From Bacillaceae bacterium IKA-2 (GTDB lineage Bacteria; Bacillota; Bacilli; Bacillales; Anaerobacillaceae): 64,000 nucleotides of DNA. Below the pieces are notes generated by a model. It worked only from the letters and a program-made list of their open reading frames with translations. It was not told the DNA's origin and made no database searches. The stretch spans positions 496,001 to 560,000 of the forward strand of contig CP134492.1 in NCBI GenBank assembly GCA_031761875.1, written 5' to 3'. Made by a program: the position numbers and the translations under genes. This document shows, one piece after another, positions 51,957 through 57,875 of this stretch; the first letter of the stretch is position 1, and each line of letters begins with the position of its first letter.

Positions 51957-52008
51957 CTGTATTTGTCAACTCAAAAGCGGTCCACGAATCAGTTGAAAAA
52001 AGGTCCAC

Positions 52009-52755
52009 TTATTTAGTTGGTTTTAGCCATGACATTGTCTCTTCAAATCGGTGACTTACTTCTCGTGAAATATCTAAGATATGTGATTTGTGAGCAAGTC
52101 TATCTACAATTGCACCAGTAAGCATCGGGTCTTTAAAAATCTCTTCCCAGCGATCAAAAGCCAAGTTTGTTGTTATGATTATTGATCCTTTATCGTTTCT
52201 ATTTGATAATAAATTAAATAGTATTTCACAACCAATTTTGTCAAATGATACGTATCCCAGTTCATCTAAAACGACAAGACTGTACTTTTCAAATTTGGTT
52301 TTATATTGCGATAGTTTGCTTTCACTCATTGCTTCTTTTAACTCTATTATTAAGTTAGGTACAGAGATAAACAATACACTTTTGCCTTCCAAACACGCCT
52401 TAATACCAAGCCCAATACTATAATGTGATTTCCCGCAGCCAGGAGATCCTATTAAGATTATATTTTCTTTATTTTCAATGAACTGCAACGTTTCTAGTTC
52501 TTCGAATTTCGGTATAAATTTCTTATGGTACTTACTCTTGTCGAAGTCTTCTAAGTACTTGTTAAGAGGGAATTTAGCCCTTCTGAGTCTATGTTTTAAA
52601 CCATTCTCAAGCCTTAGTTCTAATTCTCTTTCGAGTAGACGACTTATCAGCTCTCGGTGGGTCATGTTTGTATGGTTTGCTTCATCAAGAAGCATTTGAT
52701 AATTGGTTTTTATATAGGGTAATTTTAGTATATGGGCCATTTCTTGTATTTGCAT
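52009..52755 (-). CDS. istB: IS21-family helper ATPase IstB
   Basis: 248 residues, DnaC-like AAA+ protein that activates the IstA transposase. Walker A 'NIILIGSPGCGKSHYSIGLG', Walker B 'YSLVVLDELGYVSFD', sensor-like 'IIITTNLAFDRWEEIF', and 'RLAHKSHILDI'. Intact. The start follows the istA stop directly (TAAATG). Confidence 0.93.
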   Translation of the reverse strand: MQIQEMAHILKLPYIKTNYQMLLDEANHTNMTHRELISRLLERELELRLENGLKHRLRRAKFPLNKYLEDFDKSKYHKKFIPKFEELETLQFIENKENIILIGSPGCGKSHYSIGLGIKACLEGKSVLFISVPNLIIELKEAMSESKLSQYKTKFEKYSLVVLDELGYVSFDKIGCEILFNLLSNRNDKGSIIITTNLAFDRWEEIFKDPMLTGAIVDRLAHKSHILDISREVSHRFEETMSWLKPTK

Positions 52756-53436
52756 TTATTCCACCTCCGAGAAACATAATTCGTTATATCTAGATACTTG
52801 CCTTGTAGCGATGTTGCTAAGTGCAGTTTTATCTATGTGCATAGATGGAATAATATCGATATGAGATTTATTGTATGTTTCTAGAATCAATAGTATTTCT
52901 TCGATTGGTTTATCATCATTTTCTTGAATGATCTCTATGAATTTTTTCTTGTTTCTGCTAAAATTAGTATCATAGATGGCTTTTAACCTTGGTATGCTTT
53001 TTAGAGCGTGGGAGTTCTTGATTGCACCTGGTTTTTTGTTTAATGAGTTTAAGTAATGTTTAATTTTAATACTTATCTCGTTAGTACCATCTATTTTTTT
53101 GTGTTCACAAACGAGTATGTTGTTTGAATAAAAGCCTATTGTGTCGTAATATTTCTTGATTGTTATTAAGCGTCCTACAAGATACTCCGGTACTGAATAG
53201 TGGTTGTTATCAACTCGTACAAAACTATATTTATTTGGTTTTTGCACTGTAACTGTTGCAAGATCAAGCTTTGGTTTTGTAGGTTGAAGATGTTTTATTT
53301 CTTCAGAAATAGTGCTGTCTTTATTGAGTTCTATCAATATAGTATTCAAGTATTCACGTGCATCATCGAATGTCTTAAACTTATAAGTTAACGCAAATGC
53401 TTTGTTCCTAATTATCTTCACGCTGCCCTCCACATG
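52756..53436 (-). pseudogene. istA: IstA transposase, C-terminal half (separated by insertion)
   Basis: 226 codons, beginning at the insertion junction with HVEGSVKIIRNKAFALTYKF. It holds the probable catalytic Glu (VEG) and the C-terminal strand-rich part ('YSFVRVDNNHYSVPEYLVGR'). The frame has no stop and joins exactly to the N-terminal half at 56937 if the 3.5-kb insert is removed. A GTG at 53433 could start a separate fragment. Confidence 0.85.
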
Positions 53437-53462
53437 ACCCTTCTAATGCAAAGCTTTACATT

Positions 53463-53507
53463 AGAAGGGTAATGAAAAGTATATGATAATGTAAAGTAAG
53501 GCTGTTA
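53463..53507. repeat. Left 45-bp inverted repeat of the RIT element
   Basis: Begins AGAAGGGTAATGAAAAGTAT and ends GTAAAGTAAGGCTGTTA; exact inverse of 56900-56944. An AATGTAAAGTAA motif at 53489 is mirrored by TTACTTTACATT at 53540, a likely recombinase binding pair. Outside it, AATGCAAAGCTTTACATT (53446-53462 region) adds another palindrome. Confidence 0.9.
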
Positions 53508-53571
53508 AATAACCGTAAGTAAAGGATCCCTCGCTGTTTTACTTTACATTATCTGCAACGCAAACACTATT

Positions 53572-54591
53572 TTATTTATCAAATCTTTTTAGCCATTCCA
53601 ATAAATCTCCACTTTTTTGCCAAGAAGGTGCACCTTTTGGTACAACATCTGTATATGCTTTTTCAATTGCTTCTCTTTTTTGTTTTGAATCTACCTTAGC
53701 GTAAATTTCAGTTGTTTGGACAGAACGGTGACCTAGTATATCACGGATGTATATGAGATTAACTCCTGCTTGGAGTAAGTGCATAGCTTTTGAATGTCTC
53801 AGACAATGACAGCTAAATCGTTCTGGGATTAATATTTGATCTTTAATACGAGCCTTGCGTGCATATTTATCTAGTATGTAATTCACCCCTGCCCGGGTCA
53901 GTTTTTCTCCTCTTTTGTTACAGAACAATGGGTACATGTTTGCTGACAAACTTAACAGCCCCTGCTCATCCATATATCGATTTAATAAATCTAACGGAGC
54001 ATCCATCAGAGGGACTATCCGGGCTTTATTCCCCTTACCAATTAACTTTACAGTACATGGTCTGTCAAAACGTACTTGTGACGGAGTGAGGTCAATGATT
54101 TCCTGTACTCTTCCACCGCTTTCATACATAATTGACAAAAGAGCAAGATCTCTTCGTCCTATTTTAGTTGACTGATCAGGCATTTCCAAAAGTAGTCTGA
54201 TCCCATTAAGCGTTAGGTAACTGATTGATTTTGTTTCTGTTTTCTTAACCCGGATTCCAAGGATTCTCTGCCATTCCAAAAGATTATCGGGGCTCTGATA
54301 CTGGAGATATTGGAAGAAAGAGTGTAATGCCGCAAGGCGGACGTTCCTTGTGGCTGTACTACAGCCACGCTCTGTTTCTATCCAGTCAAGAAAGTGAATA
54401 ACCATTTCCTTATTAATCATGCCCAGCGTCAGAGAATTTGTTTTTATTCCTTTTTTATCCTTGATAAATGTAAGGAAAAGTACAAATGTGTCTCTATAAG
54501 AGGCAATCGTATTTATACTGAACCCCATTTCTCCTGGCAGGTATTTTGTAAGAAATCCTGTCAGATAGCGAGAGAAATCAGTCGGCTTCAT
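53572..54591 (-). CDS. Tyrosine recombinase, third gene of the trio (RitC-like)
   Basis: 339 residues. SAM-like N-terminal domain, then catalytic domain with 'YESGGRVQEIIDLTPSQVRF' (Arg), 'FSCHCLRHSKAMHLLQAGVN' (HxxR) and 'LGHRSVQTTEIYAKVD' (His and nucleophile Tyr). ATG 54591 with GGAGG upstream, overlapping the previous gene by 14 bp. Full catalytic set present. Confidence 0.9.
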   Translation of the reverse strand: MKPTDFSRYLTGFLTKYLPGEMGFSINTIASYRDTFVLFLTFIKDKKGIKTNSLTLGMINKEMVIHFLDWIETERGCSTATRNVRLAALHSFFQYLQYQSPDNLLEWQRILGIRVKKTETKSISYLTLNGIRLLLEMPDQSTKIGRRDLALLSIMYESGGRVQEIIDLTPSQVRFDRPCTVKLIGKGNKARIVPLMDAPLDLLNRYMDEQGLLSLSANMYPLFCNKRGEKLTRAGVNYILDKYARKARIKDQILIPERFSCHCLRHSKAMHLLQAGVNLIYIRDILGHRSVQTTEIYAKVDSKQKREAIEKAYTDVVPKGAPSWQKSGDLLEWLKRFDK

Positions 54592-55552
54592 AATGGTCAA
54601 CCTCCGGAAATACATAGGCACAAACGTTATCTACTTCTCTAATTAAATCAGGGTACATGTCAGATGTTAGCCTTACATACTTATCTGTAGCCTCTAATGA
54701 CTGATGCCCAAGATATTTTGATAATATTGGGAGTGAGTAGTATAAATCTAGCCCAGCTTCTGACATTTTCACAAGAGAGTGTACACTGAAAGTGTGACGA
54801 AAGTCATGCATTCTTGGGCCAAAACCCTTCCCACCATGTGGAATTCCTGCATTCCAGAGTATTTTTCTGAACCATTCATATATTGCCTTGGCATTACATT
54901 TTTGCCCATTGTTCTTGATAAAAAAATAACCTTTCGGTTCATATTTGCCGGGACGAACATTCCTATATTGAATACACACCTCAGTTAGTGTTTCAGATAA
55001 TGGGAGTATTCGGTCTTTGCCGTTTTTCGTTTCCCTGACAATAATATTTTTTGCATCAAGATCAACATCCTTACATGTTAGGGATAACGCTTCGCTGATA
55101 CGGATGCCACAGCCATATAGCATTCTAAATAAAGCGGGGAGTACATACACAGTTGTTTCAAATCGTCTATTAACTTTAAGCGTATCACATGCATCGAAGA
55201 ATGCATTCACTTCCTTTTTCGAGAAAATATGTGGTACAAACGTACTGCTGTACTTTTTAGGCAATCTCGGTATATGTGATGGATATCCCATATCATTTAA
55301 ATAGGCGGAAAATTTTGCAATATAATGAATCCTCGCATAACGTGTCTTGTCTGATTCATTTGGACGCTTCTCACTCCATTTATCAACAATCTCCTTTGAT
55401 AGACCGAGTTTTAATACGGCATTATCTATTGTAAATCTGTCAAATAACGAAAGTGTGTAAGTGGCATCAACAAACTTGTAACCGAGGTTTCTTTTGAAAT
55501 CAATGTACTGTTCGATTAAACCAGCATAAATACCACAATAGTTCGGCATCAT
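54578..55552 (-). CDS. Tyrosine recombinase, second gene of the trio (RitB-like)
   Basis: 324 residues. 'LYGCGIRISEALSLTCKDVD' (Arg), 'MHDFRHTFSVHSLVKM' (HxxR) and 'LGHQSLEATDKYVRL' (His, Tyr). The ATG at 55552 overlaps the preceding stop (ATGA) and has GGAGGTGG upstream, so translation is coupled. Intact. Confidence 0.9.
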   Translation of the reverse strand: MMPNYCGIYAGLIEQYIDFKRNLGYKFVDATYTLSLFDRFTIDNAVLKLGLSKEIVDKWSEKRPNESDKTRYARIHYIAKFSAYLNDMGYPSHIPRLPKKYSSTFVPHIFSKKEVNAFFDACDTLKVNRRFETTVYVLPALFRMLYGCGIRISEALSLTCKDVDLDAKNIIVRETKNGKDRILPLSETLTEVCIQYRNVRPGKYEPKGYFFIKNNGQKCNAKAIYEWFRKILWNAGIPHGGKGFGPRMHDFRHTFSVHSLVKMSEAGLDLYYSLPILSKYLGHQSLEATDKYVRLTSDMYPDLIREVDNVCAYVFPEVDHYEAD

Positions 55553-56802
55553 TCCACCTCCTTGGCATAAAATGGCGTTTTTAAGAGTGGAACATCTAAT
55601 GCGCATTGGCTCAAAGATGTTAAGTCTATTCGTAAATAAGTTTTTGTGCTTTCGGTATTCTTGTGACCTAGCACTTCTGATATAACATGGATGGGTATTT
55701 TTTGTTCCAGTAGTTGCCCAGCAAGACTGTGCCTCAAAGCATGAGGACCATGTTTCTTTTCTGTTATGTTTTTAATGCCAGCACGACGGAGATAAAAAGT
55801 AACAATGCTATGCAAAGTCGATCTATTTAGGCAGTTATATGGCGGGATTGCATGTAGGAAGACATAAGGAAGATCAGATTTAGGCCGTCCATACTTCAGA
55901 TAATCGATAATAGCCTCTCCTATTTCTATTAAAAGTGGATGCTCAATCTTATTTTTAGTCTTTTGTTGAACAAGTGTAATTGTATTCTTTTCCCAGTGTA
56001 TGTTTTCAAACTTCAACAGACAGATGTCAGAAGCCCTCAATCCCAATCGTGCAGCCAATAGTATCATAGCAGCATCACGCTTCCCTTTTGGGCTACTTCT
56101 GTCAACAGTATTGATTAATGATTCAACTTCATTTTTCGTATATGTCGTGGGTAGTTTACATTGCTTCTTGTAATTGTCTTTTGGAATTAGGTATGAAAAG
56201 TCAATCCCTGTATACCCATTGTCATGTAGATATCTCATAAACCCACGTAAAGTGGTAAGCATGCTGTGGCGCGTTGCAGGTGTATAAAAACCAAGCTGAT
56301 TCACAAATCCTAAAATGTGTTGTTTTTTAATTGCTTCGGTTTCCATGACTCCTTCTTCATTAAAAAAACTAAGAAAGCGATGAAGATTTAATCGGTAATG
56401 ACCAAGCGTATTTTCTGTAATACCCAAAGATTTTCGGTGATTAAGGAAATCCACCATAGGATTACCGATGCAACCATAAAATTGGTAGGATTTCTTTGCC
56501 CTTCTGTATTGGAACGTTCCTGTAGACTGAAATTCAGTTAGAACATCCACACACCGGATTATGCTCTTTTCCCAATGGCTAAATTCCTCGTATTTCCCAG
56601 TACCAATAAAGTCAGCTATAAATGCTCCACCTACTGACGCTGAATAATACTCAATCTGATTGTTTTCCATAAAAGTAGCCAGTTTTTGCCACGCGGAACG
56701 ATATTGGCTTATCCTTGATTCGGAATAGGACATATCCCGAAGGGATTTAACTACTTCTGAGGACAGTTGTTCAAATGTTTGATATTTTTGTTCCATAATC
56801 AT
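55549..56802 (-). CDS. Tyrosine recombinase, first gene of the trio (RitA-like)
   Basis: 417 residues, the longest of the three. 'LLAARLGLRASDICLLKFEN' (Arg), 'KHGPHALRHSLAGQLLEQKI' (HxxR) and 'VLGHKNTESTKTYLRIDL' (His, Tyr). Long N-terminal core-binding region. GGAGG lies upstream of the start at 56802. Intact. Confidence 0.9.
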   Translation of the reverse strand: MIMEQKYQTFEQLSSEVVKSLRDMSYSESRISQYRSAWQKLATFMENNQIEYYSASVGGAFIADFIGTGKYEEFSHWEKSIIRCVDVLTEFQSTGTFQYRRAKKSYQFYGCIGNPMVDFLNHRKSLGITENTLGHYRLNLHRFLSFFNEEGVMETEAIKKQHILGFVNQLGFYTPATRHSMLTTLRGFMRYLHDNGYTGIDFSYLIPKDNYKKQCKLPTTYTKNEVESLINTVDRSSPKGKRDAAMILLAARLGLRASDICLLKFENIHWEKNTITLVQQKTKNKIEHPLLIEIGEAIIDYLKYGRPKSDLPYVFLHAIPPYNCLNRSTLHSIVTFYLRRAGIKNITEKKHGPHALRHSLAGQLLEQKIPIHVISEVLGHKNTESTKTYLRIDLTSLSQCALDVPLLKTPFYAKEVE

Positions 56803-56899
56803 AACCTCCTATATTTAACGTAGGCGACCTCGCCTATATTAAATATAGCCATTGAAAATGTAAAGTAAAACAACTAGAATCACTTTGTTTATAGTTATC

Positions 56900-56944
56900 T
56901 AACAGCCTTACTTTACATTATCATATACTTTTCATTACCCTTCT
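56900..56944. repeat. Right 45-bp inverted repeat of the RIT element
   Basis: Begins TAACAGCCTTACTTTACATT and ends TTTTCATTACCCTTCT. Exact inverse of 53463-53507. AATGTAAAGTAA at 56856 and TTACTTTACATT at 56908 form the matching inner pair. Confidence 0.9.
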
Positions 56945-57722
56945 CGTTTCCACTGAAACAATTAGTGACGTTGATATCGAATCCGTAGTAGAGTGACAAT
57001 TTTAGCAAATTCTCATTGAGGACTTTTTCAGTTTTACCTATGAATTTTGATACTACATTTCTCATATTGTCGTACACAATCTCTGAATAAACGCCACCTA
57101 ACATATCGAAGAAACGCACATGAGAATCCATAAAGACGTCTTGCTTTTGATTCTTATATAAATACGCCCATCTGAAATCAGCAGCTGGTGAAGATAGTAC
57201 AGCTAGATGATAGGTATTGATCTCCCCGTTTATTTCTAACTTCACTTCGCCAAAATCATATTCAAGTCTTTGCCCTAAATCATATGATTGTTTAATAAAG
57301 CATTCCTTAGGTTTGTTTCTTTTTTCTCTGATTTTATTTGTAATAGTTGTATATCCAATATCAAACTTTTCATTGACTAGCATTTGGTGAATTTGCAAAT
57401 TAGTCAGCTGTTGTTTATGTCGACCTAACTCTTTACACTTTTCAGATTCACTCTCTAGGATTTCGTCTAATCTGGTATCGATTTCTGCTGTGTACTTTCT
57501 TGGCTTTCTATTTTGAGCATTATACTTTGGTGCCTCGCATATTTTTTCTTGTACTTCTTGTACTTCTTTTTTATTAACGTCTAAGGCATTCAACAGAGTA
57601 TTGTTCTTCTGGTACTCATTCCAATAGATTGCGACTGTTTTCCGATTGATGTTTAAAAGCTTGGCAGCTTTTCTATTGGATACACCTTGCTGCTTTAGTT
57701 TTATTATTGCATGTTTGTCCAT
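56913..57722 (-). pseudogene. istA: IstA transposase, N-terminal half (interrupted)
   Basis: Starts MDKHAIIKLKQQGVSNRKAA with a helix-turn-helix, then the integrase-type core 'LGQRLEYDFGEVKLEINGEI' (first Asp) and 'GGVYSEIVYDNMRNVVSKFI' (second Asp). The native sequence stops at 'NCFSGNEKG' (56937), after which the frame reads into the RIT end and terminates. 262 codons here plus 226 in the other half give a 488-residue IstA. GGAG is 9 bp before the ATG. Confidence 0.87.
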
Positions 57723-57875
57723 TATCTCAATCACTCCATCCCACCCCTTTACTGCCATCATAACAGTAAGAGATTAGTGTTAAAGTACTGGACCGTTTTT
57801 CAATTGATATTATTCTATTAATGGGCCACTTTTAGAGTATCATAAACAAATGGTGTAATTATTTGGAAATTGACA

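Follow-up and report, generated by a model that had tools for sequence, protein, structure and literature searches.

How did three tyrosine recombinase genes come to lie within the transposase gene of another mobile element, and why at that position? The question is raised by a 64,000 nt stretch of Bacillaceae bacterium IKA-2 DNA (contig CP134492.1, positions 496,001 to 560,000; hereafter the window), in which a 3482 bp element is carried in istA of an IS21-family element (51958-57848). We analyzed this insert, its copies in the same genome and its relatives in others. Probably, a recombinase-in-trio (RIT) element without cargo circulates as a circle with two inverted Xer-like sites and integrates via either of them, and the overlap sequence of each RIT lineage spells the codons of a near-invariant motif.

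The insert is confirmed as a RIT element of ~3.5 kb without cargo. Its genes lie on the minus strand, and the names ritA (55549-56802, 417 aa), ritB (54578-55549, 323 aa) and ritC (53572-54591, 339 aa) were assigned from gene order. They are adjacent, co-directional and all intact, and overlap by 1 bp and 14 bp with the start codons chosen here for ritB and ritC. All three products match PF00589 (E 8.3e-33, 9.6e-27 and 3.5e-31, respectively) and align over the catalytic domain with XerA/XerD enzymes, including the archaeal XerA-like 4a8e; in the 4a8e alignments, the R, HxxR, GH and Tyr blocks (R-H-R-H-Y) were identified by eye in each of them. RitA, the longest, has an extended N-terminal part, and a single SAM-like domain scored in the profile search. 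No other convincing gene was found in the open reading frame and profile check of the insert, neither a passenger nor a Srap/GinD/TnpC-type protein. The element ends in perfect 45 bp inverted repeats, on the left at the ritC end (53463-53507) and on the right at the ritA end (56900-56944), and the repeat extends to 91 bp at 86% identity. An 8 bp core, ACCCTTCT, occurs in direct orientation at 53437-53444 on the host side and at 56937-56944 as the last 8 bp of the right repeat, 3500 bp apart. A preliminary description made from the DNA letters had reported the direct cores at both istA junctions, the three overlapping intact recombinases without passengers and the perfect 45 bp inverted ends, and all of these features were recovered at these positions.

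The host element lies on the minus strand between the termini TGTATTTGTC.../...TATCATAAACA, defined by comparing 22 copies, and possesses both istA and istB, as in IS21. The helper ATPase gene istB (52009-52755, minus strand) is intact (PF01695, E 3.9e-60; NF038214 above the cut-off). The 5′ part of istA (56945-57761, minus strand) encodes the HTH and the first and second catalytic Asp residues and matches NF033546 over residues 8-263 (E 7.4e-38, below the cut-off as a fragment), and the 3′ part (52756-53436, minus strand; PF22483) begins at HVE, which includes the catalytic Glu according to an alignment of the natural intact IstA with IS5376 IstA. The DDE residues of the latter, D124, D187 and E233, are described as catalytic (PMC10122671). 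The KGHVE sequence of IstA aligns with IS5376 position 233, counted by hand, and the catalytic Glu is residue 278 of the IstA in this genome. The insertion thus lies between G and H of KGHVE, two residues ahead of the DDE Glu, as had been proposed.

We searched the whole genome (4.42 Mb, one contig) and found 19 more copies and two empty sites, a recurrence far beyond chance. All 20 copies occupy the same istA site of the same insertion sequence (IS), and no RIT copy of this type was found outside this IS. Nineteen copies are identical across 3482 bp and the remaining one has a single substitution. The IS sequences are also identical between copies except for L023, which has a 12 bp deletion in the 3′ part of istA near the insert. 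While istA is interrupted in 20 of the 22 IS copies, the two natural copies without RIT read CACATG-ACCCTTCT-CGTTTCC, exactly the in-frame empty site that had been predicted. Their uninterrupted IstA has 501 codons from the first ATG, and the predicted 488-codon IstA corresponds to a start at the ATG at codon 14. ACCCTTCT is also present, unoccupied by RIT, at sites outside the IS in the same genome, so the 8 bp core alone is insufficient or not used. Against six other genomes of the genus, searches with the IS produced at most short and weak matches.

Among the 19 copies with both istA flanks, 11 share the orientation of the window copy and the other 8 are flipped, and at least two RIT entries are therefore needed. 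The twentieth copy, L020 (G000:C1:2183400-2191500), is a hybrid with the istA C-terminal flank on both sides, the reciprocal product of which is absent among the 20 copies. A 5-7 bp IS target duplication surrounds 16 of the 19 two-flanked IS::RIT copies (the others being L014, L019 and L025) and one of the two empty IS copies. L019 is the window copy; 6 bp of its right flank (57849-57854) recur in the left flank of L029, an empty copy, and these two IS copies look as if they had recombined with each other.

A near-palindromic 20 bp spacer, TAATGCAAAGCTTTACATTA (53444-53463), separates the host-side ACCCTTCT from the element end, so that the two are not adjacent. In all eight flipped copies the spacer is reverse-complemented, yet it always remains at the istA C-terminal side. 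A single integration via the other site would explain this arrangement. We then compared the spacer among 45 loci in target classes with at least two members (loci that are single in their class, e.g. L076, L159, L160, L162, L166, L195, L198, L207, L210 and L219, stand outside this table). The side of the spacer was set by the host target in 45/45 loci of nine classes, and the element end that it touched was the majority one in 29/45. It lies on the C-terminal side at the Glu motif (14 loci), Walker A (10), the recombinase HxLRH motif (2) and the first Asp of IS3 (2), and on the N-terminal side at Walker B (3), in reverse transcriptases (7) and in methyltransferases (3). The IS66 loci form two RitB clades of two loci each; this split was made post hoc, and without it the spacer sides are 2 and 2 and the total becomes 43/45. 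A smaller set of 39 loci gave 39/39 for the host-fixed side and 26/39 for the majority element end. We ruled out that the spacer is a coupling sequence derived from the host, since the TTATGxAAAGCTTTxCATAA type recurs in unrelated hosts.

To what length the core is shared with the target was assessed in 23 of 33 junction loci, the 10 without a clear spacer being left out. Host-side and element-side cores agree at positions 1-7 from the spacer in 15, 20, 22, 13, 23, 23 and 6 of the 23 junctions, which suggests an overlap of ~6 bp between 10 bp arms, as in Xer sites. The 8 bp core was accordingly discarded as the true overlap: the preliminary description was right to place it at both junctions, but the matching overlap is probably ~6 bp and the spacer separates the core from the element end. 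In the window the overlap is likely CCCTTC (53438-53443), its length being taken from the 23 related junctions, and would correspond to the E-K-G codons of istA.

The anatomy of the element, its copies and their orientations, the spacer rule, the empty sites and the target pattern are observed; the circle, its excision, the roles of the individual recombinases and any control of IS21 are inferred. The circle would carry two back-to-back inverted Xer-like sites, arm-overlap-arm and arm-overlap′-arm, with 10 bp arms of the TTATGTAAAG type and an overlap of ~6 bp; the joint of the present element would read ACCCTTCT-spacer-AGAAGGGT. The Rit recombinases would cut this circle and join it to a chromosomal target that shares the overlap bases. 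Recombination of either inverted core with the ACCCTTCT of istA would give exactly the two observed forms, leaving the orientation of the element free while the target dictates the side of the spacer. In each lineage the overlap would spell a near-invariant motif, usually of a transposase or another mobile-element enzyme, here the E-K-G before the IstA Glu. The codons concerned could hardly be changed by the hosts: D-E of Walker B, G-K of Walker A, A-D or D-E of DDE enzymes, K-G before Glu, Q-G-G, and R-H. An overlap of this kind would provide stable targets in many hosts.

We next asked where related RIT elements reside. A genome collection was scanned with a RitB alignment, and the best 80 of 194 confirmed loci were kept. 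The flank was too short in 12 of these, no terminal repeat reached the threshold in 21, and a repeat was present in 47. Seven of the 47 were without a usable host flank (L080, L081, L090, L117, L133, L144 and L146), leaving 40 evaluable loci. A recognizable signature motif was found at the insertion point in 35/40: the catalytic Glu of rve transposases, IstA included (8), IstB Walker A (11), IstB Walker B (5), the first Asp of IS66 (ADET; 3), QGG of reverse transcriptases (3), HxLRHS of a RitC recombinase (1), the position just before QRRxR in C5-methyltransferases (3) and Walker A of ResIII (1). The fit extends to both sides in 26 of these 35, including three hybrids (L091, L114 and L123). 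L127, L128, L137, L139 and L142 are away from such a motif. In all 13 scanned fragments of IstB, the break in PF01695 falls at profile positions 102-104 or 160-161, across hosts and phyla. Within the same genus, two more multi-copy RIT types occur in genome G004, with 4 copies at IstB Walker A and 6 copies at the second Asp of an rve transposase, and a RIT in G001 lies in IS66 at the WAH motif; a further single element in G004 and L072 in G001 were assigned no target. At L150 the host is itself a RitC gene, whose product is 81% identical over 221 residues to RitC of L071; L150, L212 and L215 are RITs in other tyrosine recombinase genes at the HxLRH motif. An RNA-family scan of L161, L168, L137, L139, L128 and L072 found only group II intron parts (L161 and L072), distant from the element ends.

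The target pattern was examined further in a hold-out sample, for which a plan was written beforehand. The searches covered 398 genomes at the level of the class and 398 at that of the phylum, the own genome included; RitB was found at E<=1e-70 in 15 and 40 genomes, respectively, with scoring limited to five candidates per genome. We took 56 of the 72 listed places outside the own genome, those omitted being mostly within-genome repeats and contig ends. The 56 comprised 8 duplicates, 6 places without flank, 8 without a terminal repeat and 34 with a repeat; since L180 and L183 have no host flank and L178 is masked, 31 were evaluable. An active-site or signature motif was found at 25/31. The remainder are L198 (amidoligase HVHV), L207 (C-terminal part of a methyltransferase), L219 (DruA-like), L216 (at the end of a phage portal gene), L209 (ArdA fragment on one side, dissimilar flank on the other) and L220, whose host is unrecognized. 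L209 had been read as a serine recombinase, and this reading was dropped because the larger fragment matches ArdA; the two flanks of L209 may therefore come from different genes. L209 and L128 each have one junction with sequence of the TGQA-DG type, which might be an additional target motif in antirestriction-like genes; neither locus is counted at a motif. L208 fits from one side. Among plasmids, 13 of 60 listed records (222 with a match) were chosen for breadth; eight of the 13 loci have terminal repeats and a spacer, and 6/8 lie at a conserved motif called by eye, namely TTxRY of a recombinase, the second Asp of IstA, the second Asp of IS66, QGG of reverse transcriptases twice, and GFGxF of HU. 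The other two, L161 and L168, were assigned no motif. At L167, one of the five remaining plasmid loci, there is a second repeat pair at plausible spacing. Taken together, the samples place 66 of the 79 evaluable relatives at signature motifs that are conserved and mostly belong to enzymes of mobile elements, chiefly the IstA/rve Glu, IstB Walker A or B, the IS66 Asp, reverse transcriptase QGG and recombinase HxLRH.

Several loci are hybrids, in which the two flanks represent one and the same side of the host gene and sometimes derive from two different host elements (L020, L065, L067, L091, L114, L123, L170, L191 and L212; L170, L191 and L212 were recognized by eye and missed by the script). 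They suggest recombination between oppositely directed RIT copies, through which RITs may drive chromosome rearrangements. The proteobacterial plasmid RITs L164 and L169 have toprim-domain genes on both sides in opposite directions, possibly another hybrid at a plasmid gene.

The target motif tracks RitB clades across phyla. On a tree of 41 RitB proteins, the 11 target labels need 11 changes, with a possible minimum of 10; shuffled labels needed 27.2 on average, and none of 200 shuffles was as low as 11. The Walker B clade spans Bacillus, Clostridium and a proteobacterial and a Chlorobiota genome bin. Some placements in this tree are unsure owing to long branches and near copies inflate the clustering, and L117 (4 nt of flank) and L146 (~6 nt) were labeled both here and in the hold-out reference set. 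In the hold-out sample the nearest labeled RitB named the motif in 20/30 loci, with IstA Glu and rve Glu treated as one motif, and in 17/17 at 45% identity or higher, a cut set post hoc. Shuffled predictions gave a mean of 3.65 matches and a maximum of 11 in 10,000.

Three other explanations have to be weighed against integration of a circle via either site. The flipped copies might have arisen by inversion in place via the terminal inverted repeats, for which the perfect 45 bp repeats and the intact recombinases would be suited. However, such an inversion between the repeats would leave the spacer unchanged, whereas the spacer is reversed in 8/8 flipped copies and the host-side rule holds in 45/45 relatives. 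Two separate inversions, of the element and of the spacer, could still give the flipped form, and we reject inversion in place as the origin of these copies, regarding it as highly improbable. An about even chance is given to a second explanation, in which RIT entered IS21 only once or twice and the 20 copies were produced when IS21 transposed the IS::RIT composite, intact copies providing IstA in trans. The IS parts hardly differ between copies, two intact istA copies exist, no RIT lies outside this IS, and the separate target duplications mean that the composite was mobilized in trans by IS21 unless RIT arrived after the IS had moved. Against this, both orientations are abundant, which requires at least two RIT events, and only 2/22 IS copies are free of RIT. 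Because the copies are identical, their sequences do not separate composite transposition from repeated RIT entry. Composite transposition is compatible with the integration model and bears only on the number of events.

The motif rule itself might be a matter of ascertainment: RITs may insert widely, harmless insertions in abundant mobile genes survive, and conserved motifs are the easiest to recognize. Most hosts are indeed dispensable mobile genes, and some were unrecognized (L137, L139 and L220). This view is at odds with the breakage of IstB at only two profile positions across hosts and phyla and with the success of RitB alone in naming the hold-out motifs far beyond the shuffled mean, and we consider it unlikely. 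Several points nevertheless weigh against integration of a circle at near-invariant motifs. The circle and its excision are deduced and neither was observed; the empty copies fit clean excision, but may never have been invaded; and with IS21 transposing the composite, no more than two RIT insertions could suffice to explain most of the 20 copies. Matching within the overlap is incomplete, with 7/7 bases in 2/23 junctions and at least five in 17/23. Among the 35 motif loci, nine rest on one flank (L076, L087, L093, L096, L097, L109, L116, L129 and L138), and 13 of the 79 evaluable relatives are off recognized motifs (5/40, 6/31 and 2/8). Motifs were called by eye; Pfam backs the host family in 26/30 scanned fragments. 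A Pfam check of 10 hold-out fragments agreed with expectation in nine and contradicted the eye call at L209. Prediction from the nearest RitB fails below 45% identity (3/13), and loci without a detectable repeat (21/80, and 8/48 of the non-duplicate hold-out places) could differ in behavior.

The dif site of XerCD consists of an arm, a 6 bp center and an arm, and we liken the RIT site to this layout. Unlike dif, the RIT joint would have two such sites, inverted and abutting, and the target is without arms. Inteins and homing introns likewise target conserved catalytic codons, which remain available from host to host, but RIT has no splicing, so the host gene is disrupted. The host IS may thereby be silenced, perhaps reversibly. 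Published RITs share with the present element three overlapping tyrosine recombinase genes in a fixed order and multiple identical copies, but the accessible portions of these reports contain neither a rule for the target or the spacer nor data on orientation (PMC3414803; PMC2864759). They describe elements of ~3.5 kb with inverted repeats containing an overlapping palindrome, one of them in a Tn6049-like transposase gene (PMC3414803), and others in IS66 tnpA and radC (PMC2864759). RitA is reported to have two core-binding domains and RitC an extra C-terminal helix (PMC8138268). SE, GInt and Tn554 resemble RITs in having several tyrosine recombinases, target specificity and a 6 bp footprint, but have a further protein (Srap, GinD and TnpC, respectively; SE and GInt also Tfp/GinC) where the present element has none, and SE and Tn554 transfer 6 bp of flanking sequence to their opposite end, whereas the RIT here has a fixed 20 bp spacer of its own (PMC10214605). 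A target rule based on catalytic motifs was not found for RITs in a literature search that did not reach Ricker 2013 and Van Houdt 2009, and priority for it is uncertain. As for the preliminary description as a whole, the RIT, its istA site, the empty sites and the lack of passengers stood, while the spacer, the two orientations and the wider target rule had not been seen.

According to the part of the literature consulted here, RIT movement has so far had no tested mechanism: target specificity, empty site and movement are listed as not tested in Table 1 of PMC10214605, and RIT transposition is stated there not to have been reproduced in the laboratory. Because a single genome contains 20 copies facing either way, together with natural empty sites and an asymmetric spacer, the reaction becomes directly testable. 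More speculatively, and less likely than not, RITs may be hyperparasites that form one guild across phyla, in which the short overlap ties every lineage to catalytic codons in a single class of mobile-element enzyme (even the recombinase of another RIT, as at L150); they would switch hosts by overlap mutation, reversibly shut down the transposons that they occupy and act as natural brakes on transposition. If it holds, the target pattern would explain how a cargo-free element has spread across phyla, and the attachment site of each lineage would be readable from its sequence.

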